Part shown: positions 9,977 through 28,258 of the stretch, one piece after another
Layout of the letters: each line of letters opens with the position of its first letter
Numbering within the stretch: the first letter of the stretch is position 1
Notes under the pieces: model-generated
What the model was told of the DNA's origin: nothing
What the model saw: only the letters and a program-made list of their open reading frames with translations
Databases searched by the model: none
Made by a program: the position numbers and the translations under genes
Source: Ectocarpus siliculosus
Lineage: Eukaryota > Sar > Phaeophyceae > Ectocarpales > Ectocarpaceae
DNA length: 37,603 bases
NCBI GenBank assembly: GCA_000310025.1
Contig: FN648779.1
Location: forward strand, 5,828-43,430
Reading direction: 5' to 3'

Positions 9977-11670
9977 ATGAGCGACACCGAGCAAGATCGA
10001 GTGAGCGCCCGACTAGCAGAGGAGGACGCCCGGATCAACGACTTGGTCCACCAGAGGGTAGAAGCAAGACTGGCCGAGATTTCGAGGCAACGAGCCGAGG
10101 AGCGGAGGACAGATGACGTCCGGACCGGAAGAGAGCACGAGGATCGCCACCAGCAAGACGCGGGGCGGCCATCGGCCAACCCGACGACCGACGAAATCGC
10201 CCGCACACTCGCCGACGCCCTCACCGGTCGACTTCACGTCTCATCAGGGGACATGGGTAGAGTACCCATTAACTCAGGGACGGTTAGAATGACCGAGACT
10301 AAGCGCCTAGCGCCTTGGGATGGTGTGTTTAAGCAAGGGGAGGATGAGCAGGCTAAGTTTTTTATTTTTCGATCGAACGTGGTAGCTATGTTTGCCCAGG
10401 AAGGAGTGCGTGACGTGGTGCTGACTGAAGAAAAGATTCCAGTCGGAAAAGAAGGCGTGAGCATGGAAGAGATGCGTAGAGTGCATTCGAGTGAAAGAGT
10501 AGAAAAGGCAATAACGGCGTGGAACCTGCTGATTGTGACATACATGCCAATCCTGACCCAGATCATCGCCGATGGTAGTCCAAGTGGAGGTTGGAAGATA
10601 TTCCTTGACTATTACGAGCCGCGTGCAAGGGCCGAAAAAGAAAGGCTGTCATCTCAATATCACGCTCTTGAGATGAAAGAAGGAGAGACCCCGCAAGAAT
10701 ACTTTGGGAGATTTGCTGTTTTGCGCAGTAGGCTAGCCTCGCACGGTGTTGTTTTCTCCGACGATGATGCCAATGCCCACATAGTATACCACCTTTCCGA
10801 TGAGTACACGGTAGAGAAGAAGATTCTGACGATGTCACCGATTCCCCCCTCGCGCGAGACAATTGAAAAGGCTGTGCGAGATGCTCATGCGGACTCGGTT
10901 CGCCGTCGGGAGGGGGAACCGAAGAATGGCGCGGGGCACGCGTTCGTCGCTTCCGGTGGCATCCGGGGCGATGGATGTGTCCAAAATGGGTCGAGTGGAA
11001 ACGGCGGGGGTCAGGACGGAGACGGAGGCGCCCGGAGCCGGAGCAGGAGCAGGGTGAGAGGAAACAAGAAAGGCGGAGGTGAGAGAGGAGCCGACAACGA
11101 CCACTGCTACCTACATCCGCGCTTGTTCCACACAAACGCCCAGTGCTACACTCAGCGCGACCGTCAGAAGGAGCAGGAGCAGCAGCAGCCCCAACAACAG
11201 CAGCCTCGGCAACAGCAGCCTCAGAAACAGCAGCCTCAGTAACAGCAGCCTCAGCAACAGCAGCCTCAGCAACAGCAGCCTCAGCAACGGCAGCCTCAGC
11301 AACAGCAACTTCACGGACCGCCGCCGCAGCAGCCGAGCTACAGTGGGGGGGGCTGGGGCGGTGGGCCTCAGCACGGACCTCACAGCGGCTACGGAGGACA
11401 GCATCAGCACAGGTATTCAGCGCCCCCTCGTCCGCCACAACCGCCTTGGCGGCCTCCGTACGGGCACGCTAATGTGATGCACGCGTATGGTGCTATGCCC
11501 TACGGGGGGCCCGCGAATGGTACCGAGTATGGCGGGTGGGAGCAGCAGCAGCAGCCGCAGCCTTCGCCAGACTACTACCAGCAGCAGCCGTACTACCCGC
11601 CTCCGACACCGTACTACCAGCAGCAGCAGCCACCACCGCAGCCTCCACCACCGCCGTCGTTTCAGCCGCA

Positions 11671-11701
<31 letters not shown>

Positions 11702-11896
11702 CATGCCCCGCCCCAGTCGCCTTCTCCTGGAGCAGCAAGCTATCCGCCTGGGCATCTCCACTCCCTGATGGCACACTTTGTGTCCGCTGACGAGATGAGT
11801 TCGCTTTCGGTTTCGAGTGATGGAAGCAGTGTCGCATGTGGTGATGATCTTGGCTTTGCTTTGTCTGCACCAGAGTTGCGAGTACAGTCCTGGTAG
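9977..11896 (+). pseudogene. gag: Copia gag polyprotein, one premature stop
   Basis: The frame opens with MSDTEQDRVSARLAEEDARI, a charged helical region. A copia Gag-like core follows: KRLAPWDGVFKQGEDEQAKF near residue 110, then DYYEPRARAEKERLSSQYH and EMKEGETPQEYFGRFAVLRS (UBN2/gag-polypeptide type). Near residue 380 is a zinc-knuckle-like CYLHPRLFHTNAQC, in which the second usual Cys is His. A 15-base repeat encoding Q/P follows, and in one unit CAA has become TAA (11240-11242). The same frame stays open after that stop through a Pro/Gln/Tyr-rich tail to 11896, so the stop is probably a recent point mutation. Start chosen as the first Met after the LTR. Confidence 0.85.
11195..11315 (+). 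repeat. 15-base coding minisatellite (CAACAGCAGCCTCAG)
   Basis: About eight units, encoding Gln-Gln-Pro-Gln type repeats in the gag frame. Units differ by single bases; one begins AAA and one begins TAA, the latter making the gag stop. All three forward frames stay open across it, which explains long spurious ORFs on both strands. Confidence 0.85.
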
Positions 11897-12563
11897 GGAG
11901 GTATTTTGGTCTGATAGCGGTGCAAGCAACCATTTTGTGAGTAACAGCTCTAAGATGTACAACATCTCGCCTGTTCCCCCCGGCAAAGAATTCATCAAAG
12001 TAGGCAATGGTGCTCATTTGCGCGTGGAGTGCGTAGGTAGTGTCAATCTGGCATTTCACATGGCAGGAGGTCGATCGGGAGAAGCGGATTTCTGTGTCCA
12101 ATTGACAGACGTGTACGTAGTACCAGGCATTTCGTTCAACTTGTTCTCTCTGCACCACACGCAGAAAAAGCACAGGATAATGTTGGATGAGAGGGGTGTG
12201 CACCTTTTCGGCGGTCGGCTTAGTTTCGCATATTCGGATATCGGATGCTCTCTATCGGCCACCCGCTTGCCTCCCTCGTACCACGACGGTGATGTAATCC
12301 CCTCTACCGTTGCCCCCCCCCCCGTTGTCCGCCAAGCGTCTCCGCCTGGTGTTGGTACTGGCCTTTTTGCGCAAAACCCCCCTCCCCCTTCTCAGATTTC
12401 AGGATCGGGTGCAGGATGCGGTCCGAGTTCCAGCTTCCAGTCCATCGGTCCCGCACGGTGTTGTACCTTCGGCTTCGAGCTTCCAGTCCATCGGTCCCGC
12501 CGGTGTTGTACCTTCGAGTTCGAGCATCCCGTCCACCACTTCCGGTGTAGTACCTCCGAGTGA
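11817..12563 (+). pseudogene. pol: Copia protease region
   Basis: This lies in the +1 frame relative to gag and overlaps its end by about 80 bases. It contains FWSDSGASNHFVSN, with the aspartic protease Asp-Ser-Gly-Ala site, then a beta-rich stretch with FIKVGNGAHLRVECVGSV and VPGISFNLFSLHHTQK, typical of copia protease (retropepsin-like). The frame is lost in a 45-46-base tandem repeat (units at 12432, 12478 and 12523): the first unit has one extra base. Two TGA codons (12561, 12585) follow before the same frame reopens into integrase. Confidence 0.85.
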
Positions 12564-12587
12564 TGCTTCCCCGTCTATCGATGTTGA

Positions 12588-14318
12588 TTTAGTGTCTCTC
12601 CGTCGATCCGAGATTTTCAGCCTGTCCTAGCCGCAGCCATCGCCTCATCCGACGTCCTGTCCCCCTCAGTCGTGAACCCGAATGTGTCGCGAGAGATAGA
12701 GATCATGCCCCTTGAGTCCCAGGATAATTTGCCTTTGATGGACATGAGTATGTTCTTGGATGTAGGCTTGATGAACGGACAAGACTCGGTCCCACCGGGT
12801 GACTTTTATCCCGACCCATTAGGCGTATGTGAGTCGGTGAAGCCCCCCGTTGTGTTCGCTGTGATGCAAGATGAGTTGGACGTGCTCAGAGACTTTGTTG
12901 TCGAGTGCCGTGTGCAGCAAGATGTAGGTCCCCCCTCCCTTTCCCATGCTTTGGCGATTATCGCCCCCGGTGGTCCAGCGTTCACTGTAGGAAAACCCAC
13001 GTCCACCATCGACATTAATTTGTTCCACGCTTCCACCGGCCACGTGAATGAATTCCTGATGAGGGAAACCGCAAAGCAGCAGGGTGTTCAATTGGTGGGG
13101 GAACTGCAGCCATGCGTCGGCTGCATCGAGGCGAAGGGCAGGAGGGCCCCGGTGCCGCGGCGTGGAGTCACCCGCGCGGCGGTACCGTTCGGCAAGGTGC
13201 ACATCGACATCACCGGCCCGTACTCTGAGGCGTTCGACGGTTCCCGTTACCTGATCATGTTCGTGGACAGCGCGTCGCGGTGGCAACGGGCGTACGGCAT
13301 GCGGGCCAAGAGCGACACCCTGACGTACACGCGGCGCTTCCTCGCCGACCCGAACGGCAACGGTACTCCGGGGTGTTTCCGCATGGACAACGGTGGTGAG
13401 TTCACCAGTGCTGCCTTCGTCGCGTTCTGCGACGCCGCTGGCATCCGGCGCGAGTACACCGCGCCCGACACCCCGAAGCAGAATGCGGTCGTCGAGAGCG
13501 CAATCCGGCGCGTGATGAAGGGGGGCCACGCCGCCCGCCGCCACGTCCTCTCCATGGGCCACGTCGACCTCGCCTCTATCCCTGGTATGGACGCCAACGG
13601 ACACCGGCTGTGGCTTGCATCGGCGATCTGGGCCTCCGGCTGCTTCAACCGTTCCGCGACGTCGGCCAACCCGGCCTGGATGTCGCCGTTCGAGGCCTTC
13701 TTCGGACGCAAACCGCCGCTCAACGTCGTCCCTTTTTTCCAGGAGGGGATGATGCGCGTGAAGCGCGCCAGCAAGGCGGACGTCCAATCCGTGCGTTGCT
13801 TCTACCTGCACGGAGCGCGCAACCACTCCGCCGCCACTGCCGTCGTTCTCCGCGCCGACACCGGAAGGATCTGCCTGTCCAACAACGTCGTGTGGATCAA
13901 CCGTCGCACCGCCGTGCCGGCGCCGATACCGGCCAGCGGGGGGGGCTCTTCGGTCACCGCGGCGCCCTCGCCGGCCGCCGCCGTTCCTGCAGCCGCTGCC
14001 GCACCGCCACCGCCATGGACATCGCGGACGTACACCTACACCCCGCCCACAGCGACTACCGCTTCGCCGCCGCCCGCTTCTCCGTCGATCTTCACAGGGT
14101 CCGGGGGCCGCGTCGCCGATCTCCACGGCGTCTTCGAGTGCACCGCCGTCCACTGCAGCCACGCCGCCCCGTCCACCGCCGACACCACCGCCCGCAAGCG
14201 CCGCCGCTCCCGCTCCCCATCACCCGCCGCTTTCACAGCGAGCCGTCAGAGAGTTGGGCGAGAAGGAAACCAGAGTGCATGGCCGTACGCGCGGCGACCG
14301 AGTGCGCTTCATGGATGA
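12588..14318 (+). pseudogene. pol: Copia integrase region
   Basis: Same frame as the protease. The pre-integrase HHCC zinc site is visible as LFHASTGHVNE followed by CVGCIEAKG (about 13020-13135). The DDE catalytic residues are the Asp in VHIDITGP, the Asp in FRMDNGGEF and the Glu in QNAVVESAIRR. A GKP-type C-terminal motif (FEAFFGRKPPLNVVPF) follows. The last 150 codons are Ala/Pro/Ser-rich linker. The frame ends at 14318, while the downstream domain continues in another frame from about 14254, so a frameshift lies at about 14250-14310. This segment is markedly GC-rich compared with gag and RT. Confidence 0.88.
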
Positions 14319-16215
14319 GCAACAGCAACCGCCGTCGCCGTCAGGTGGCGGCACCGCTCTCCAACACCGCCTTGGGCTGCTGTCGATGATGGGCAAGGAT
14401 GCGCTCGTCTCGTCGCTCGCCACCCGGGAGGTCGTCGACCAAGGACGTCGAGACCTGCCACCGTCCGCCAGCATCGCCCCTCCCGCTCCCCCACCGCCGC
14501 AAGATACGAGTTTAGCAGGCCATGGGAGCGGGAGGGCCGCAGGATCTGGGGGGCCGGGGGGGCTGCACATGTTCGCAGCAATGTTCGCCACCCGCGAGGA
14601 CGTGGAAGCCACTCTTCGTGCCAAGCGCCCTCCTGACAAGACGCCGGACCTCCCTCACTGCCTCGCCAGCGACCTCCGAGTGCCGAAAATGTTCAAGGAG
14701 GCCATGCGGTCTCAACATTCAGAGTTGTGGGATGATGCAGTCGGTCGGGAGTTTTTCGGTCTGTTGGATGCAGGTACTTTTAGTCCGGTGTAGCAACCAG
14801 TAGAAAACTTCATCAACGCCAAGTGGGTATTCAACTGTAAGGCAGACGAGTACGGATGGCCGACGAAATTCAAGGCAAGACTTGTAGCGCGGGGGGACAT
14901 GCAGAGGGCTTCGATTGATTTTGGAGAATTGTTTGCACCCACAGTATCCGTGTCTAGTGTGCGTTTGTTGGCAGCTTTGGCATGTGAGCAGAACCTTGAC
15001 TTGTGTCATTTCGATATTCAGCAGGCATTTGTGCAGTCTGAGCTTGAAGAGGATGTTTTCATGCGTCTCCCGCGAGGTTGTGGTAGGTTATCTGGACTGA
15101 TCGTGAAGCTATGTAAGAGTCTGTATGGTTTGAAGCAGGCGTCACGACAATGGCATGCGCACCTGACGAGGTGTTTGTTACTTTTAGGATTTGTGCAATG
15201 TTTGGCGGATGCATGTGTATTTCGATTTATGGAGGATGGATGTGTGATCATGATCATCGTGGTCCACGTGGATGACATTTTTACCGTAGGGCAGAAGGAG
15301 AGATGTGACAAGTTTGGCAGAGACCTCAACGAGATGGTCCCCGTGAAGAACCTTGGGGAGTTGAGGTGGTACTCCGCGTGCTTTTACCAGAGAGATCTAG
15401 AGAGACGCCTTTTGAGGATCTCGCAGCAAAGGTTTGCAGAAGAGTTGGCTGCAGAGTACGGCGTAGAGTGGGGGGAGAGTGTGCCCTTGCCTGTGAGCAT
15501 GGAGCTCACCGACTTTGACGAGAACGAAGCGTGTGCTGATGTCCCTTTTCGCGAGTTGGTAGGATCCCTGATGTGGTTGGCCACTCAAACCAGGCCGGAC
15601 ATCGCGAATGCAGTACGAGCAGTAGCGCGGTATTGCGCGTCTCCCAAGATGGTGCACTGGAAGGCAGCACTTGGTATTTTAGGGTACGTGCGTAGGACGA
15701 GTTGGATGGGGATTACATTTGAGGGGGGTGTGGTGACTGGCATGAGCATGCAGGTGTTTGTGGATGCTAACTATGCGAGCAAGGCAGCAGACCGTAGGTC
15801 GGTTTCAGGAGGACTAGTGATGTGTGGGGGTGGGTGTGTGACTTGGTTTTCGAGGACGCAGAAGTGCGTTACGCTTTCCACAACGGAAGCAGAGTATGTG
15901 GCAGTTGCCGACGTCTTGAAGGAGGTGCTTTTCTTGAGGCAAGTTTGGCGTTTTATGTTGCCAGATGCAGGCATGCCGTGCATTCAGGTCTTCGAGGATA
16001 ATCAGGGAGCGATTCAGATTGCGCACAACCCGATCACGAACTCAAACTCGAAGCACATTGATGTACGGCATCACTTTATCAGGGAACTGGTAGAGAGGAA
16101 GGAGATTTCGATTACTCATGTGGCGTCGGAGTTTCAGCATGCAGATTTCTTGACGAAGGCTATCAGCAAGGAATCTTTTGCGTTGCACAGAGACTTTGTG
16201 ATGAATTTGCAGTGA
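14254..16215 (+). pseudogene. pol: Copia reverse transcriptase and RNase H, one premature stop
   Basis: The copia RT lead-in (VPKMFKEAMRSQHSELWDDA) precedes a TAG at 14791-14793; the same frame continues with NFINAKWVFNCKADEYG, FKARLVARGD and SLYGLKQASRQWH. The catalytic motif is VVHVDDIFTVG, with His where most copia elements have Tyr (YVDD). Next come SLMWLATQTRPDIANAV and RNase H: VFVDANYASKAADRRSVSGG, LSTTEAEYVAVAD and EDNQGAIQIAHNPITNSNSK, then HIDVRHHFIRELV and HADFLTKAI. It ends at a TGA at 16213-16215. The TAG is a likely CAG-to-TAG change. All catalytic Asp/Glu residues of RT and RNase H are present. Confidence 0.92.
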
Positions 16216-18972: not shown

Positions 18973-20145
18973 CCATTTCGCGACGACGTGGTTGAAACCC
19001 TCCTACGCGCCATGGGGCCGGGTCGCTTCTGCCACGACTTGAATCCCTTAGGGTCGTTTTCAAAGTAGAAATCAGATCTCGAAAATCACATTTCGATGTA
19101 AGAATAAAAGAGTCGGATCTACCCAAATCCGGACAGAAATGGCCTGTGTGTCTTAACGGGAGATCTGTCAAATGGAAACGAATCTCTGCAGTCCACCACG
19201 AACAACCCGAGAGGTCCGCCGCTTGCCAACTGCCAGATTGCTGTTGTGACGTACTGTTATGACGTGGCCACTCCACATGGGGAGCTATCGCTTCCGAAAA
19301 GCACACACCAAACGCGTTCTGCGGCCAATTCTCTACTCAGCTTTTCATGAACCTGAAGGAAGAGTGGAGAAGAAACACACCTTAAGACGGACGCAAACAA
19401 AAGGAACATCCGGAAAGAAAACACACACGCCCGCAGGGGCCAGAGACAATAAACGAGGCCGCGCTTCTCCATCAGGCACTATCACAGTCAGGCATAAATA
19501 AATAGGAAGAAATGCTTGATAGCAAACGCGGTGACTATCAGCGAGGGTGTCAGGCCCAATGTCCCTACGTGATACGCGTTCGTTCCCAAAACCCCGTTCT
19601 CGACGACAGTGTTCCATGAAATTTCGTCAGCATCCAAACGACAGGTTGCCCCACGCACGTCGAGGGCCAAGCTCGGTTCGTGATGGAATCAATCGCCTTG
19701 AGCCGGTGTATCCACCACTCACTCAAGGTGTCACGAAGATGAGCACCTGTTGTGAAGGTGCGCAGCGGAATACAATACCACACAGAGAGACAAGGACAGA
19801 CGAAAGGGAGAAGGGACGAGCGATTTGTCCGAACAGCGTTCGAAGAACCGTTTTTGTGAGCACTGCGCGACAGACTCGCTCGCGCCGAAAGGCGAACTGG
19901 TTGCGAAATGGATGCTACTGGACAAACAGGAGAAGCCTTGGGAGTCCAACAAATTTTCCATTACTGCCCAAGTATTTGTCCTGCTCGATTGAGTTTGTGT
20001 CCAATATTGACCTGGTGGGTATAAAACTACCTTGCCCTGTCCACGTATGCCTGATGACACCAGAGGCACACCAAATCCCCTCGACACCAACGGTTGGCGA
20101 ATTTCCCAGGCCCTCGCAACAAGCAATCGTGGACACAACGCTCAC
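18973..20145. other. No resolved gene; should hold the 3' end of the LNR gene
   Basis: The last exon(s) and 3' UTR of the minus-strand LNR gene should lie here, since its exon 20292-20146 ends at a donor. Candidates are a short exon after an acceptor at about 20070 (CATCAG, reading AYVDRA) and an open stretch on the minus strand at 19488-19670 (with DADEISWNTVVENGVLG and a hydrophobic end). Neither is convincing. Confidence 0.3.
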
Positions 20146-20960
20146 CTCGATGAGACTGATCCATTCGTCTGAGAGGAGAGCGACGGACTCGAGCATCACA
20201 GTACTGACGTCAGTAGCCGTCACACCGAGCGTGTTGAAGGTGGCATCGGCGTAGGACTCGTGAGTGTGGGTCATCTCGCCGTTGATGTAGACCTGTGTGG
20301 GGAAAAGTTCGCGAGGTATCAAAGATGAAACTTGCTTCGAGCGCCGCCTGTGGAAAACGCCCACGGAAGCCGCTTGGGATGGGAGGGCGTCAGAAGTGTG
20401 GGCACGATAGCGCGCTTCGAGGTGGGTTCCCAGCCCGCGGCGAACGTGCCATCGCCATTCACCTCAATCGCTAGGAGCGGTCAACACCTCCAAGCATTTC
20501 ATGTACACGTTACGAAATGCAGTCCTCATGGTGGCTCACAGTCGCACAAGTGTTGTTGGGGGCTACCAGTAACTAAAATAGAGGGCTTGTTGTTTCGGTG
20601 ATCTTCAGCCTGCTGGGTGTCGCCCTCACCTCTAGGGTACGGGTGCGCTCGTTTCCCTTCCAGAAGGCAACCTGGATGTCCACAATGGTCTGGGGTTCGG
20701 CAAAGGTGAACTCGATCTGGCACGGCCCTTCGTCATCCACGAGCTTCGTGGCGCACGACCACCTCGACTCGATCTCGGAGAAAATTCCATCACGGGTGTT
20801 GGCCGCCGTGCAGCCAAGGCCGCCGACCTCTCCGCACCCGTCGTCGCCGGGCCGCACGTCGTGGGCGGTAGATGATACGCCAACCTCGGTCTTGGTGCCC
20901 ACCTCAACAGCACCGTCGACCGTCGGCAGGGCCTCTGTCTCTTCCCAGGGGACAAATTCG
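20146..20960 (-). other. F5/8-type-C-like (discoidin-like) domain
   Basis: Covers the C-terminal part of exon 21132-20630 and exon 20292-20146. The order of a Ser-Arg-Trp-Ser start, an Ile-Glu-Phe-Thr-Phe strand, an Ile-Val-Asp-Ile-Gln-Val-Ala strand, a Thr-Leu-Glu-Val strand and a closing Trp-Ile-Ser-Leu-Ile-Glu strand resembles F5/8 type C / galactose-binding-like beta-sandwich domains. The assignment is by motif order only; an unrelated beta-sandwich is possible. Confidence 0.6.
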
Positions 20961-23900
20961 TACGACATTGGCTGGTCGTCGGTGCTGAAGTCATCGCTCC
21001 CAGTAGTTTCTTCGCCGAAGCAGGAGGCGTTCGGGTCTTTGCAGTTGAAGGTGCCGTGCTCGCTGCTGCAGGTGTAGTCGTCATTCCAAGCGCTCTCGCA
21101 CGTGCACTCGCAGCAGTCGCCGCCATCGTACGCTGAGGAACAGAAGGATAGTTCAACAGCGAGGGGGAATTACAAGGCAAAGAGGAGAAGGGGAAGCGGT
21201 CGCTGTTGGCTGGTTGAGCCTGATCCCTACGGAAATAGTTTGTTTGCATGCGGCAAATCTCGCATGCCAGTACAACACCGAAATGGGCGAGCGGAAGTAA
21301 TGGCATCGGCACCATCAACTTCAAACAAATAGACGCCCACAGAATCGCTTCCGCGCATTTGTTGCTAACATGCACAGATCAAAGAAAGAAGCAGAGAAAC
21401 ACAGAGGACAGAACGACAGAGGTTGTTTCTTGGCCAGTAGCGCTACATGCATAGCTTGGTCTTGAGACAACCAACGCGGGAAGGATACATGGGGCAGAGC
21501 GCCAACGACACCCCGTATTTTCCATGCATAGGCATTCGCTTGAGACGGCAACGCCTGCGATTTCTGGGAAGTGTCGAACGAGCTACACTACTTAATTCAC
21601 TGAAAACCCATCCGGACGCATCAAACAAGAAGGGATTCAGCCAGTTGGGCGAGCAATGTTGCTTGACAAGGTTGACTGTCGCGGCCTATTCTGCTTGGGA
21701 CAGCGCCTGCTCCAGCACGGTGGTGAACGTTTTCAAGAAGCAGCAAATCACCGCCTTCCGATACTACATAGAACCACGAGGCTTACCGCATAGCTCGTTG
21801 TTGTTCTCTTCGTCACACCAGCCATTCCCCATTACCCGTAGGTAGTCGCAGTTGTCGATCATATCCACGGTGACTGAATCGTCATCGACGCAGGGTGCTC
21901 CAGGGTCGATGCAGGCGAAGCCGCTCCTCCCACCGCACTTGTTGTTTGGCTTGTCGACAGGCACATGCGTAGCAATACGTTAGCCGGAAAAACGCGCGAA
22001 CACGTGCAAGAGATCGAGTAACAAAGCGCCAGGGACAGCGACGTCACCATCACGCCTGGCCGTACTACTGACACCACAAACCATAGCACCGGGATGGAAC
22101 ATCGGACGGGGTTTTGTCGACATGGAAGGCATACTACCACTGGGCGAAACGCCGCGAGGTGTTTGGCGGGCGGCACGAAGGGTACGTGCCACGCATCCAA
22201 GCAACGGAGCGTGAGGCTCGTTTACTCCGTGCTCCATTCCTTGCACTGACTGGTTTTCAAGCGGCTACATTGCTTTGCATGCTCCCGGAGACGGCTGTGA
22301 GGCGCTACCGTTGGCGACACAAGGTATCAGACCTCGCACCCCCTGGCCCGAATTTCAAAGCTCGGATAACTCCACAGCAGTAGCAACAGTGGCGGGGTCG
22401 AAAAACGGCAATGTTGGAACCATCTCGTTGAGAGCAGCCTCATGCCTTTCAAAGCGTTTCGCCTAGAATGGGCAAGGAGAAGAAATCATTCCCATACCTC
22501 GCACGTGCACTCGCAGCAGTCGCCGCCATCGTAAGCTGAGGATAGTTCGGGGCGGGGGGAGCATACGCAACACGAACGGTTGAGGAGAATTATTCTGTAA
22601 ACATCACATTACACCACACCATACCACACCACGCCCTCTCTGTCATTGGACAGCAGTGTTTCACGTACGTTACCGCCCGCGTGTCACAGTCGAATTCGGG
22701 CTTCCACGTTTTCTTGACATGGCTCTCGCCTTTCCATCATTTTCTTTCCGCCATTTGATTCCGCCTGGGTGGCAAAAATGATACAGGGCTTGCACCTTTC
22801 ATGGCCTGCTGGCAATATAGGCAAGACAATCTACCGTACACGAGAGCCATGAGCACGCACCGCAGGCTGCGTTGTTGTTGTCCATGTCACAGTAGCCGTC
22901 GCCCATACCGACAGCGTCGCAGCTCTCGTCGACATCGACAGTGATGTCGTCATCGTTGACGCAAGGGGCGCTGGGGTCGATGCAGGCGAACCCTTCGCCG
23001 CAGGCGACGTACAAGTCGTTGTCCCAGTCATCGTCCGTAGGTACCTGACGAGTGTGTTTCCAAGGCAACGAATGATAAGGGTTGGTGCGAAAAAATACCA
23101 TATCTGACCATTGGGACGGAGAATTAAGGAAGATACGTACCGAAAGAACGCCGATCGAACTCCTTTGGTAGACCTATTGCGGATTCCAAGGGCTTACCAG
23201 AAATATCGCGGCGAAGAAAACAAATGCTCGTGCAGATCCAGAGATGAGGTAATCGGGGCAGCCGATGAAAAGGTGGGGGCAAAGAGATATATGCGCTATC
23301 TACCAAGGACACGAAAAGGTGCTATAAGTTGGGGGCATGCGTAGTGGAAAGGTTGCTCACCTCGCATGTGCACTCGCAGCAGTCACCGCCATCGTAGCCT
23401 GCCGAATCAGGGGGCAGGGGCGAAAAAATGGGCATGAAAAACTTACAGGAGGATGGTGATGCCAAGAGGTTTGGTCGAATGACACCGATTGAGTCCCTGA
23501 CCTCCGAATTATATCTAAAATGCCGACGTGTGGACGGGAAGCCACGTCGGCTTCCGCACAAGTGCTCCACAGCCCAACGCAATCTCACCGCACAGTTCGT
23601 TGTTGTTCTCCTCGTCACACAATCCATCGCCCACACCTGACAACCGCCTGCCGTCAGTGGCGTCAAGCGCGTTATACGTCAAGGCAGCAAAAATGAACTT
23701 CAGGTTTATTCCAGTACTGGAGCGTAGCAACGAGCCGGCAACGCCTTGTTTGTCCGGATCCCAACTAACCACGGCAAATAAACGGCTGGACACGCGCCTG
23801 AACCGGGAAATCCGAAACTCATTCCGCGCGGGCTACATCTGAACATCTCATCATCATGGCGAACATGGGTTTGAGGGCTCAGCAAGGTCGAACAAAAAAA

Positions 23901-26900
23901 CACACACACACTTTTCAACCGCACTGAGACTGACGTATTTTCATTGGTCAGCCAGTCAGCGCGGTCGATGCTAAAAAACCACTCACACACACACATGTGG
24001 GAAACTCCGCAATCATATTGGAGACATATCGATGTCACGGCACGTACACCCATGCCACGCCGAACAACACATCGGCAGGGAAAAGCCATTCCCCAAAAAC
24101 CAGGCGTGTTCGTACAGATTTTCGAAGGTGGGGTGTCAGCGACAACATGTGGCAAAGCAGTAAAACTAGTGGAAGCATCACGCCCTTGGTTGTGCTGCTC
24201 GATGGACGTCTAAACGCAGCACTACATTGGAGACGCTCCTCGACGGCACCAAGAGGAAATTGTGCATAGACTCAATCGCGGTAGTTGCAGATTTGACGTA
24301 CCCGCACTCCTCCACCATCACAGCGGTGATATCGTCGTCAACACAGGGGGCCTCGGGGTCGATACAGGCGTCGAAAATGCTGCAAGTCCAGTCGATGTCG
24401 TCCGATGGGTTCTGGCACATGCGTGAGCAGAAACAGACAAAAGACTTGGTAATGGTTGAAGAAGGCGAACTGGAAGGGAGGGGTCAAGGCTAACATAGGC
24501 AGGACTCGTCCTAGCAATAGCAGCTGGAACTTGTGTTTTCAAATAATTCGCGAGGGCCGGCGGGGAGGGGGGGGGGACGTACTCATGTTTTGCATGCCTT
24601 AATTGTTGACCACGCGTCCTCGAGACGATGGAGCCTTGTTGTCACGGAGCATTAGCGAGGACATTAGGGGGGGGAGGAGTTACAGACGGATTTTCTCGGA
24701 CAACCAACGCCAGTAAGTGCAGAGCGTACAAGCGCTACGACAAAGTTTCAAGCCTCGTCTTGTTCAGCGGCTACTCGAGTATCTGTTTTCTTTCTGCAGA
24801 CCCTACTGCTACTGAAAGTGAAAACCTGTGCCTTCTTTGTGCATCACCACACATGTGCGAAGGCAGAACTGCAAACGTCTCTAGACTGAAGGGTTCTTCA
24901 GAATTGAGACGGCGTATGCCGAGCTGAGAAATGCACATATCTACCAAGGCCACAAAGGGTCCAAACCATACATTCTTCAGACCTCCCACGTGCTTTTCGA
25001 TTAACCTACCACACAAGTGCACTCGCAGCAGTCGCCGTCGTCGTAGCCTGAGGCAAGAAGGCACGCCAACGATCAAGCAGGGATGAGGGAATTTTTTGAT
25101 GTATACGCGTACGTCGAAGAACATCGGAAATGAATCGTATGCATAGGTTTACGGCTTCCTCTGGTTCAAGACCCGCGACCCATCGGAGTACAGCAAACCT
25201 CACACGTCCGGTTAACGGTATGAGACCAACCTGAAACTACATATCCGCTGACGAGATTTCCAACATGCAGTGAATACACAGCGCGCGTGGGGTGAGTGAT
25301 GCCGCCCTTCAAAGGCAAAGGAGGTGGGGGAAATGAAGGGGTCTCTATGCGCAAGGGGGCGCTGGAGCAGCAAGAGGGGCGTGTAGGTGAGGGAGCAAGA
25401 GCGAGAGAGAGGGAGGAAGAGAAAGAGAGAGAGAGCAAAGAGAGAGGGACACAAAGCAGGCCACCACTTCGTTAAAATCTGTCAAGCGGTTGTCTGACAC
25501 GGGTGCGCGTAGGTCGATGTGCTTGCGTACGTTCACGTGTGCAATAGATTTACATCCCATGGCCATATGAAACACTTACCGCATAACTCGTTGTTGTTAA
25601 CCTGGTCACACCAGCCGTCCCCCAAATCCCAAAAGTCGCACTCCTGCGAGGCTTCGACGGTGACACCGTCTTCGGCATAGCAGGGTGCGTCCGGGTCGAC
25701 GCAGGCAAACCCAGAGCCGTTTTTGGAGCAGATCCAGTGGTGGTCGCCGCCCTGTGGGTTCTGGTGTTGGAAGCGCGCGGCAAAGAGAGGACAAGTAAAT
25801 TCTCACAACCGCGGGGATCTCGGAATGAGAGAGAGGCGTGGGAGTGAGAGGTGAAGAGAGGAAATTCAGGGAACCCGCCTAGGACACCTTCCGTGTGCAT
25901 GCGTACCAAAAAGAGAGAAGGTATGTCTAGGAAAAATGGGTGAGAGAGGGGGGGATTGTTCGGCCTGAGAGATGGGAGGGGAAACGCCACATCGAGAGTA
26001 ACTATATTGACTGCCCCTTGTAATGCCTACGGGTAGTTCCAGCGCTTTTGGTGCTTCGGATGTGTACACCCGTGGACACGAAGAGAAAGAATATGGTCGA
26101 GGTCAGATTCAGATTGGTGGTAAAATAGGGGTGTGGAAGAAGGGCGAGGGGAGAGAATTCTACTGAGGATGGAGAAGCCACCTTCTTTAGTAGAATCCTT
26201 TCACGATTCACACTTTTTACAGTTCTCACCACGCATGTGCACTCGCAGCAGTCACCGCCGTCGTAGTCTGGGAGACACGGGACAAACAAGGACAGAATGG
26301 GGGAGAGGGCAGACGATAACTACCAGGGTCACACCTGACCTTGCCGTTGGGATGAGGTCGAGCAGGCTTGCATGCTATCCAAATTCTAGTCAACTTTGCA
26401 AGAGGAAGGGCATGTTTTTTCAACATCTTCACGTCTGGTGTTGAGCCACCACTGCCCACCGACCGCTTCATGAAAGGGCAGCCAACGTGAAAGGAAGGAA
26501 AACGGCGGCATGGACAGGGCAGGTACGGCGAGAGGGATTGCCAAGTACAAGGGGTTATTCGCCATGTTACCTCCAACCTCAATCCGAACCCATCCCTCCC
26601 CCTCACCACCGACTCACCGACTCACGCGTAATCGCTGACATTCTTCGCCCACATCTTTTCCCGCTACAGCCTAAATAGTGCCTGCTCTATATTCGAATTT
26701 TGTGCAACCCTCACGTCACTTTGGAGGGAATGTTGGGGAAACTAATGGGTCTAGTTCTCGTTTTGGTTTGGGGATGTCCTATGCATACAGCCGTCATCGC
26801 ACCCGTGACAGTTTCGTGGGAGATTGAGATTGGATGGGATAACAAAAGGAGATGCAGAAGATTGACTGATGGGTTGCGGACAGATATATAGGTAGGTAGG

Positions 26901-28258
26901 GGGGGGTGAGGGAGGGAGAGAAATAAAGAAAACGGCGAGAGAGACACATCGTAATAAATGCGGTCGTAGGAGAGATGAGCTTCTACACCATCAACGCCAT
27001 GGCCACCTGGCGGGTGCATGCGAACAGTGAGATGAAGGAAGGTGAAATGGAGACCAAGAACAGCAGCATGTATCGAGAGGTCACAAATTGAAAAGGTCAA
27101 GTTGTCGCACGGCTGATTTACTCTTATGGCGTGATCTTGTTGATTCTAACCCGAACGAAACCGTTGAAAAGTGTTTCGGGGGTGTGGTCGTGTCCACGAA
27201 ATCGAGCGAAACCTCCTTTCTTCACTGGATACTTTTTCCCGTTGGGTGTACTCGTTTCCAGGGCCAACGTACCGCACTCTGGATTGTTGTTCCCTTTTTC
27301 GCAGATACCGTCTCCGATAGCGCCAGCATGGGAACAGTTCGCCACCAATTCAATGGTAACGTCGTCATCGTCGACGCAAGAGGCGTCCGGGTCGATGCAG
27401 GCCATGTACTCTTTGTCGCATCTCCCAGAGTAGTAGTCGTCATCGCTTTGAGTCTGGAAAGGGTAGGGGCAGCAGAGTTTGAGCGGGCAGTCCATTTCTC
27501 AGCAAGGGCACTTCGAGTCGGGGGGGAAGGGTAGAGAGAGAGAGAAAACTATGGCCATGCTACATGGAACCCTCTGTCATGAGTATTTGAAACGTGGAAA
27601 CGCATCGGGCTTGCATCCGCCATGCAGTATGCCAGTACGAACGGGTGCGCTCGATTGGAAAATCAGACCGTGTCGAGGGCGGATGGGGCACACAAAACAT
27701 CACAGTCAACATCTCGAAAGAGAACAACGGGTGAAACCGATCTTACCTGGCAAGTGCACTCGCAGCAGTCACCGCCGTCGTAGCCTGCGAAAGCGGGGGC
27801 CAATGGGGGGACGACATCGAATGGCAACAGGAAACAAGAGGGAACGGACCTCAGGAAGATAGTGACGAGTCAGCTCGAACCCGATGCAACGAGGGTATTG
27901 TAGGAACGGTTCAGACTGTAGCTGGATGCTCGGGTCGTTGCGCCTTCAGCACGTACTAATCTAACCTAAGGGCGATTGCTCATCGCACAGCAGGGTTTGC
28001 AGCTATGACTACTACTCGCAGGAATGTGCGACAGGAGCTTTTATCACTCTTGAACAATATTTCCAAAGATGGGCACGTCACACCACCAGGAGGTACAGTA
28101 CACATACCGCATTCTGCGTTGTTGTTTGGCGGCGTGCAGTACCCGTCTCCGTAGAGAGCATCCCAGCAGCCCGAACTGCTCAACGAGTTGGCGGCGACAC
28201 TGGACAGGACGACCGCTGCACCGAGGACGCCCAGCAGGCGGCTGGAATGTTTTGTCAT
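20146..28258 (-). CDS. Secreted protein with six Lin-12/Notch repeats and an F5/8-type-C-like domain (14 exons, 3' end open)
   Basis: Exons on the minus strand: 28258-28108, 27784-27747, 27453-27273, 26267-26230, 25760-25580, 25047-25010, 24411-24302, 23647-23589, 23398-23361, 23044-22861, 22535-22498, 21949-21787, 21132-20630 and 20292-20146. All borders are GT-AG and all joins agree in phase, giving 1869 bases or 623 codons. The start Met opens a signal peptide (SRLLGVLGAAVVLSSVAANS). Six LNR modules follow, of the GDGxCDxxNNNxxCG plus YDGGDCCECTC type, each preceded by a spacer with CIDPxAPCVDDD. The last long exon reads ESRWSCATKLVDDEGPCQIE, then IVDIQVAFWKGNERTRTLE, and continues in exon 20292-20146 as VYINGEMTHTHESYADATFN, a discoidin/F5/8C-like fold. 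LNRs bind calcium, and F5/8C-like domains often bind glycans; an extracellular or matrix role is inference. The terminal exon is unresolved. No other gene sits within it; a decayed MITE lies in the intron between exons 11 and 12. Confidence 0.88.
22315..22440 (-). mobile_element. Decayed MITE copy related to the element at 34099-34316
   Basis: It shares CACCCCCTGG, a TTTCAAAGCTCGG-like block and GTTGGAACCATCTCGTTGAGAGC with the other element, in the opposite orientation (the latter matches the reverse complement of GACGAGACGGTTCCAAC there). It lies in an intron of the LNR gene. Right terminus not recognisable. Confidence 0.6.
25385..25452. repeat. GA-rich microsatellite in an intron
   Basis: GAGAGAGA-type stretch with few interruptions, in the intron between exons 5 and 6 of the LNR gene. 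On the coding (minus) strand it is pyrimidine-rich. Similar purine-rich patches occur at about 25820-25990 and 27525-27545. Confidence 0.7.

Follow-up and report, generated by a model that had tools for sequence, protein, structure and literature searches.

Background

The closest described relatives of the gene treated here are the pappalysins PAPP-A and PAPP-A2 for its repeated part and the alginate lyase AlyQ for its C-terminal part. The Lin-12/Notch repeats (LNRs) of PAPP-A bind Ca2+ and hold fewer than three disulfides (two or one), and its C domain, i.e., LNR3 and the tail behind it, binds IGFBP-4 and STC2, less strongly once Ca2+ is taken away (PMC9579167). The CBM32 of AlyQ, a domain of the F5/8C discoidin fold, has an arginine (R248) that may bind the uronate carboxyl and a Ca site at D209 (PMC5651945); the CBM32 of VxAly7B, another alginate lyase, bound alginate gel beads (PMC8776709), and CBM32 is regarded as a likely type C uronate binder (PMC9971899). 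Here, we analysed a 37,603-nucleotide stretch of the brown alga Ectocarpus siliculosus (contig FN648779.1, positions 5,828 to 43,430; 'the window' hereafter means this whole stretch) and describe in it a minus-strand gene whose probably secreted product joins six LNR-tail modules to a CBM32-like domain and which belongs to a large, clustered gene family.

Brown-algal LNR proteins are represented by the Notch-domain genes of Ectocarpus (Esi0061_0098 and others), 16 of which are found among gamete transcripts, one being reported down in the etoile mutant (PMC3879662); Notch-domain expansions are also mentioned for the diatom Chaetoceros (PMC8613185) and for Saprolegnia (PMC3681718). In addition, the brown-algal ROCO-LRR and NB-TPR genes form families with repeat units on phase-matched exons, the ROCO genes having one leucine-rich repeat (LRR) per exon, in one phase (PMC11378527). 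The family described here differs from them in using a pair of exons per unit, with a 38-nt micro-exon, and in encoding extracellular-type cysteine modules instead of LRR or TPR. An LNR plus CBM32-like architecture was not found among the matches listed in open-licence literature on brown-algal LNR/Notch proteins or CBM32/alginate-binding wall proteins, and the combination is taken here as new, made from known kinds of domain.

A repeated module resembling the pappalysin C domain

The window protein contains six DGGDCC/DDGDCC motifs, starting at residues 53, 126, 199, 268, 342 and 409, and the Pfam LNR family PF00066 matches it in five stretches at 52.1 bits (cut-off 21.2). A first-pass annotation made from the DNA letters alone had read the repeat as a composite and not an LNR alone, which was confirmed (six copies of a unit of ~73 residues), and had placed a conserved spacer ahead of each LNR. 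The latter is true for five of the six; LNR1 comes directly after the signal-like start, with no such segment ahead, and all six LNRs are followed by one, LNR6 by a variant copy (TCSSEHGTFNCKDPNASC). Since LNR1 lacks a tail before it and every LNR, including the sixth, has a tail after it, the natural unit is an LNR followed by its tail. At the gene level, a long exon (phase 0 in, 1 out) encodes the tail together with the first half of the LNR that follows, the second half of which lies on a micro-exon of 38 nt (phase 1 in, 0 out). The exceptions are LNR1, which begins on exon 1; LNR6, whose end lies on exon 13, a large exon; and unit 4, which an additional intron interrupts (exons 7/8), in the paralogues as well. 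This repeat pattern is beyond chance, because identical exon phases and junctions recur in the paralogues.

The conservation claimed for the spacer (C...CIDPxAPCVDDD...TV...C) was borne out by an alignment of 47 long exons, taken from eight genes of the Ectocarpus genome, which omits unit 4 (intron-split) and units with partial hits, e.g., unit 7 of C39_147 and C39_340 (loci are named after the genome's contig labels, the window gene being C236). Indeed, F-A-C-I-D-P-x-A-x-C-V-x-D-D, a Thr, the LNR cysteines and N-x-x-C are largely conserved, and the spacing from CIDP to the first LNR cysteine is fixed in nearly all rows; therefore, the tail is no loose linker. The stretch ahead of the tail is variable and includes DDDW micro-repeats; as an example, the copy number of the acidic DDDW micro-repeat before the unit 5 tail differs between C39_355 (L008) and C24a (L003). 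Within the LNR, each of the six units has Asn in place of C4 and nothing that clearly corresponds to C2, so that in place of the six cysteines and three disulfides of a Notch-type LNR the units show a reduced, PAPP-A-like form. The LNR core and the typical Ca-ligand positions are shared with the negative regulatory region of Notch, which differs from the window protein by its C4 and clear C2; the EGF and ankyrin repeats of Notch were not found by Pfam in the window protein, where LNR alone matched. Asp and Asn occupy what we take to be the typical LNR Ca-ligand places (CD..NN..C.YDGGD), and the units probably bind Ca2+.

The match outside the family depended on the register. Profile A2, in the register of the first-pass annotation (tail before LNR), matched essentially only the LNR parts of pappalysin, Notch and GNPTAB; it was abandoned for profile A3 (LNR then tail, built from 13 rows, i.e., six window units and seven from other loci), and this switch brought the tail into the pappalysin match. 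The top six chains for A3 are all pappalysin-1 and -2 (chain E = 2e-10 to 3e-9, best 7y5n). In 7y5n, LNR3 and its tail (CDAINNRAFCNYDGGDCC...SCDLQGDCACRDPQA) cover A3 model positions 9-63 of 67 (40.0 bits, E = 3.2e-9 alone), and the LNR2 stretch (16.8 bits) likewise extends to C-x-D-P; among the 10 rows of Notch, GNPTAB and FI02838p at E ≤ 0.01, seven end by position 35 and three reach 48-52. By these profile matches, the unit most resembles the PAPP-A C domain (LNR3 + tail), with firm homology of its LNR to pappalysin LNR3 and suggestive homology of its tail to the tail behind it. The spacer, previously proposed as an unnamed Cys-rich domain, would thus have a precedent, even if the tail match alone is weak. 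Both groups, spanned by one profile, share an LNR without the usual C4 (NNxxC), a YDGGDCC core and a C...C-x-C-x-D-P-x-A tail. In the pappalysins, however, the module occurs once and closes a metzincin protease, whereas six to nine tandem copies without a protease are found here; no metzincin catalytic domain was found in the window protein, PF00066 being its sole Pfam match at E ≤ 1.

A CBM32-like C-terminal domain

Profile A1, made from six related C-terminal domains, matches the CBM32 of AlyQ at E = 2.5e-9 (7d29) and 2.3e-8 (5xnr) over most of the domain. The next matches are far behind, with the alginate-lyase CBM32 5zu6 at 0.51, no better than an unrelated chain at 0.72; a single domain as query reached AlyQ at 0.016. 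By these profile matches, the C-terminal domain is homologous to the AlyQ CBM32; it may bind uronate, and chain ends are a likely target. The F5/8C-like C-terminus of the first-pass annotation, while gaining no direct Pfam match, is therefore retained as discoidin-fold-like by profile search and narrowed to CBM32-like. Note that a relative on C33 matches F5_F8_type_C_2 at E = 0.0027 (18.7 bits, below the cut-off of 27.8), and that an NCBIfam search of the full protein gave nothing useful.

Counting residues along the A1 alignment (chain index = AlyQ number minus 180), AlyQ R248 corresponds to the first Arg of KGNERTR, W303 to the Trp of DEWIS and the Ca-site residue D209 to the Asp of NTRDG. 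Across 12 family places, which include the near copy C310 and the broken C39_167, the Arg and the Asp are kept in 12/12, the Trp in all 11 places that cover it and the neighbouring Lys in 8/12. The window domain differs from the AlyQ CBM32 in its extra cysteines (GCGEVGGLGC, SRWSC...C), in having no catalytic partner, in being eukaryotic and in lying below Pfam detection. At two further loci, L055 (C19) and L058 (C9), CBM32-like domains adjoin Pro/Thr-rich, mucin-like linkers. Scans of IMG/VR gave 138 pattern stretches with the C-terminal alignment and three with one unit, none of them confirmed as relatives.

Gene model

The gene is real and comprises 15 exons on the minus strand (28258-19723), encoding 630 codons (Table 1). 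The 14-exon, 623-codon open frame proposed earlier (28258-20146) is stop-free, with GT-AG at all internal junctions and consistent phases; its exons, junctions and phases stand, but it ends one exon early, as the frame runs on into a short exon 15 that completes the C-terminal domain. The product thus reads, in order, signal-like start, six LNRs, acidic linker and C-terminal domain, the last at about residues 480-630. Among the 12 places examined, the VLIFVTP-stop ending after an AG is present in C236 (the window), its near-identical copy C310, C24a, C39_355, C138 and C39_147; C39_235 ends in VLIFVKV-stop and C39_167 has VLVFVTP without the stop, and the scan of the same 12 places found no exon-15-type ending in C39_340, C39_410, C39_378 and C24b. 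Homologues of exon 1 occur in C24a, C138, C39_355, C39_378, C39_410, C39_147, C39_430 and C419. A Pfam search of the full product, a check proposed in the first-pass annotation, found the LNR and no other family at E ≤ 1. The array is strongly acidic (101 Asp+Glu against 9 Lys+Arg in 416 residues), as is the whole protein (137 Asp+Glu, 19 Lys+Arg). The signal-like start has a hydropathy of 1.91, and the maximum past residue 30 (averaged over 19 residues) is 1.69 at 611-629, inside the CBM-like domain at the very end; the only hydrophobic stretch besides the N-terminal one is therefore the last strand of this domain.

Table 1. Exons of the window gene in window coordinates, with their coding content (positions inside exon 13 were counted by hand from the exon sequence)
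Feature	Coordinates	Strand	Content
Exon 1	28108..28258	-	Met, hydrophobic signal-like segment, LNR1 first half; phase out 1
Exon 2	27747..27784	-	38-nt micro-exon; LNR1 second half, YDGGDCCECTC; conserved in paralogues
Exon 3	27273..27453	-	Unit 1 tail (C..CIDPDASCVDDDD) and LNR2 first half
Exon 4	26230..26267	-	38 nt; LNR2 second half
Exon 5	25580..25760	-	Unit 2 tail and LNR3 first half
Exon 6	25010..25047	-	38 nt; LNR3 second half (YDDGDCC variant)
Exon 7	24302..24411	-	Unit 3 tail and LNR4 start; extra intron, also in paralogues
Exon 8	23589..23647	-	LNR4 middle
Exon 9	23361..23398	-	38 nt; LNR4 end
Exon 10	22861..23044	-	Unit 4 tail and LNR5 first half
Exon 11	22498..22535	-	38 nt; LNR5 second half
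Exon 12	21787..21949	-	Unit 5 tail and LNR6 first half
Exon 13	20630..21132	-	LNR6 second half, unit 6 tail (~21097-21020), acidic linker, CBM32-like start (~20911)
Exon 14	20146..20292	-	Later part of CBM32-like domain, including DEWISLIE
Exon 15	19723..19746	-	VLIFVTP-stop; end of CBM32-like domain

A large family with a variable number of modules

The window gene belongs to a large, clustered gene family. A query of two units, run against its genome (492 contigs, 189 Mb), returned 142 matches at E ≤ 0.01, exons of the window included; 150 of the 198 candidates were scored. PF00066 itself matched two places at E ≤ 0.001, and single-frame LNR searches undercount in this genome because the micro-exon splits the LNR. 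The same genome also carries at least 150 matches to the EsV-1-7 motif, which is linked to brown algae (150 of 880 candidates scored), and 14 control genomes gave none. The C-terminal domain as query gave 35 genome matches; in 12 of these the exon-13 part is 69-97% identical, and these 12 close places comprise seven on C39 (147-411 kb, both strands), two on C24, and C138, C236 and C310. Over 3,604 bases, C310 is 99.75% identical to C236 (5 mismatches, one gap opening), and C419 is 99.98% identical over 4,493 bases; each of these two contigs ends inside the region matching the window gene, and both are perhaps the other haplotype or duplicate contigs of C236. A distant query found further relatives of the C-terminal domain on C3, C9, C11, C14, C21, C33 and C472, those on C11 being grouped at 595-655 kb. 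Two members, C39_167 (L029, L048) and C39_430 (L020, L045), have stop codons inside units and are probably decaying copies.

A second architecture with an LNR and a C...C-x-D-P tail was noticed in L051 (C17), L052 (C351), L053 (C14) and L054 (C24:3.5 Mb), which are long open frames with at least one LNR-tail unit followed by Pmp-like GG-A repeats. In the C351 frame these repeats match the Chlamydia Pmp family PF02415 (56.9 bits), and the other three were likened to it by eye; judging from sequence, the GG-A repeats probably form a right-handed beta-helix.

Counted by micro-exons, the window gene has six LNRs and C39_147 seven, eight were detected in C39_355, and C24a, C138, C39_378 and C39_410 have nine each; C39_340 has six but no exon 1 within the stretch covered, and C39_167, C39_430, C39_235, C24b and C45 are partly covered or look broken in this count. 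The window gene aligns with C24a in three blocks that are 92.6-94.5% identical, introns included. The match stops at the end of the unit 6 micro-exon of C24a and restarts at the start of its unit 9 micro-exon; a single run of 36 bases in the window gene, at the start of exon 13, matches both micro-exons. The window gene therefore lacks units 7-9, ~5.0 kb, in frame. The simplest cause would be a recombination between two like micro-exons. An assembly artefact is unlikely, because the same junction is also present on contig C310, which differs from C236 by the mismatches and gap given above. In addition, an exon pair is absent from C39_147 at each of two other places; the breaks lie in introns, and the phases keep the frame. 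As in exon-shuffled genes, the repeats are thus encoded by phase-matched exons in variable number, which adds a candidate exon-shuffled extracellular family to the brown algae, with a junction visible in sequence.

Substitution patterns among paralogues

Across the family, omega (the ratio of nonsynonymous to silent divergence, from pooled pairs that are not independent) is 0.29 in the tail core, 0.37 in the LNR part and 0.39 in the variable part. The units are under purifying selection across the family, and positive selection at this scale is unsupported by these values. Of five pairs listed, omega exceeds 1 for the window gene and C24a (1.43 in the tail core, 1.77 in the LNR part) and for C39_378/C39_410, for which 1.33 in the variable part rests on two silent changes.

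Between the window gene and C24a, intron divergence is 0.049 (295 of 6,204 sites), and the exons differ strongly along the gene. Units 2-4 have a nonsynonymous divergence (dN) of 0.155, about three times the intron value, with an omega of 1.19; units 5-6 have 0.053 and 0.63, exon 1 has 0.103 with an omega of 3.56 on one silent change, and exons 13-15 have 0.030 and 0.41, the omega for exons 2-12 together being 0.85. Out of 51 amino-acid differences in units 2, 3, 5 and 6, 24 could be polarised as derived in the window gene and none as derived in C24a, the other 27 not being polarisable with three outgroups; all conserved Cys columns are retained in these units of the window gene. This pattern fits relaxed or diversifying evolution in the shortened copy. 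However, silent change in units 2-4 also outpaces that of the introns (p = 0.003), and positive selection is therefore not proven; conversion from an unsampled donor paralogue is a possible source of the fast units 2-4.

Proposed role at the cell wall

We propose that the product is a secreted protein held on a uronate-rich wall polymer and presenting an LNR array of variable length, and we put the probability of this reading at about 0.5. The protein would enter the secretory path via its N-terminal signal-like segment and would probably be a soluble wall or matrix protein; secretion, as claimed before, is probable given the hydropathy of the start and no other clear hydrophobic stretch but the C-terminal strand. 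The six LNR-tail modules, fixed by disulfides and probably holding one Ca2+ each, would form a stiff acidic rod in which each module may act like the PAPP-A C domain, i.e., as a Ca2+-dependent protein-binding surface. The CBM32-like domain would dock the protein on a wall polymer that contains uronate; alginate is the likeliest candidate, perhaps bound at its chain ends. The matrix or wall adhesion role suggested by the first-pass annotation becomes more specific here because, among solved structures, the C-terminal domain is closest to an alginate-lyase CBM32. Paralogues differ in module number by whole phase-matched exon pairs, in one case with the junction inside a shared 38-nt micro-exon, probably through recombination between like exons, so that the family could offer arrays of differing length on one kind of anchor. 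For the array, we favour protein partners at the wall that would act in adhesion or in sensing the wall. To our knowledge, the proteins tying brown-algal cells to the alginate wall are poorly known, and a defined candidate wall-linking family would bring a testable anchor domain together with a module whose animal counterpart is a protein-binding exosite. Of such proteins, a figure legend names arabinogalactan proteins and WSC-domain proteins (PMC8307928).

Several points weigh against this proposal. Unless Ca2+ forms a bridge, it is not evident that so acidic a protein would suit a polyanionic wall, and the hydropathy of 1.69 over the last 20 residues is slightly above the 1.6 usual for a membrane span. 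The match of the tail only to the PAPP-A tail is 6.1 bits, which was equalled by 312 of 20,000 shuffles (~0.016), hence the lower grade given to the tail homology than to that of the LNR. With the full protein, Pfam gave nothing for the C-terminal domain at E ≤ 1; the domain by itself matched no F5/8C family at E ≤ 5. Phe replaces the Trp in the more distant domain on C19, and both the Arg and the Asp persist in C39_167 although that copy is broken, so that conservation among close paralogues is no strong evidence of use. The Arg is common among CBM32s and therefore no proof of uronate specificity. Finally, the AlyQ CBM32 bound cleaved but not intact alginate (PMC5651945), which weakens a simple anchoring role.

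The alternative that survives best, which we nonetheless hold to be unlikely, is a structural or calcium-handling wall protein, whose acidic array would bind Ca2+ and tune Ca-alginate gelling without any specific protein partner. The high acidity of the array, the length variation of its DDDW stretch and the Ca2+ binding of LNRs in PAPP-A (PMC9579167) agree with this, but same-position units are alike between paralogues, more than a generic Ca buffer would seem to need.

A role in sensing wall damage or oligo-alginate is rather more doubtful. Here, the CBM32-like domain would read the new ends of cut alginate and the array would signal to a membrane partner, the proteins acting as secreted co-receptors. 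The preference of the AlyQ CBM32 for cleaved alginate (PMC5651945) and the likely type C uronate binding of CBM32 (PMC9971899) would suit such a role, as would oligoguluronates acting as elicitors in Laminaria (a title cited in PMC8307928), the phase-matched repeat exons of proposed brown-algal immune receptors (PMC11378527) and the rapid amino-acid replacement in the window gene's units 2-4. Nevertheless, the protein has no signalling domain and no clear membrane span, and its units are under purifying selection family-wide (omega 0.29-0.39). It is a long shot, and the boldest form of this idea, that the cluster encodes secreted molecules recognising cut alginate, with a CBM32-like head for freshly made uronate ends and an exon-shuffled, Ca2+-dependent LNR array, variable in length, recruiting different partners; if true, it would be a repertoire for wall integrity and pathogen sensing built from parts unlike plant or animal receptors.

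Gamete or cell-cell recognition, or developmental cell communication like that of the etoile-repressed LNR proteins, is improbable: the 16 Notch-domain genes among the gamete transcripts, one of them down in etoile (PMC3879662), make it conceivable, but those genes may or may not include members of this family, and the LNR proteins repressed in etoile are reportedly described as transmembrane. Decay of the window copy into a non-functional duplicate is just as improbable: the loss of three units, the 24 polarised differences (of 51) all derived on its side, the dN in units 2-4 at about three times intron divergence with silent change also raised, and the broken units of its relatives C39_167 and C39_430 have to be set against 15 exons with canonical junctions and no stop or frameshift, the retention of every conserved Cys column in units 2, 3, 5 and 6, and constrained exons 13-15 (omega 0.41).

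Other features of the window

Outside the gene, pieces of a Copia-type retrotransposon lie in separate frames on the plus strand at 9977-16215, i.e., gag (PF14223), integrase (PF00665) and reverse transcriptase (PF07727). Between ~17400 and ~17930, short-period satellite-like DNA rich in TTCATGGAA-like motifs was seen by eye.

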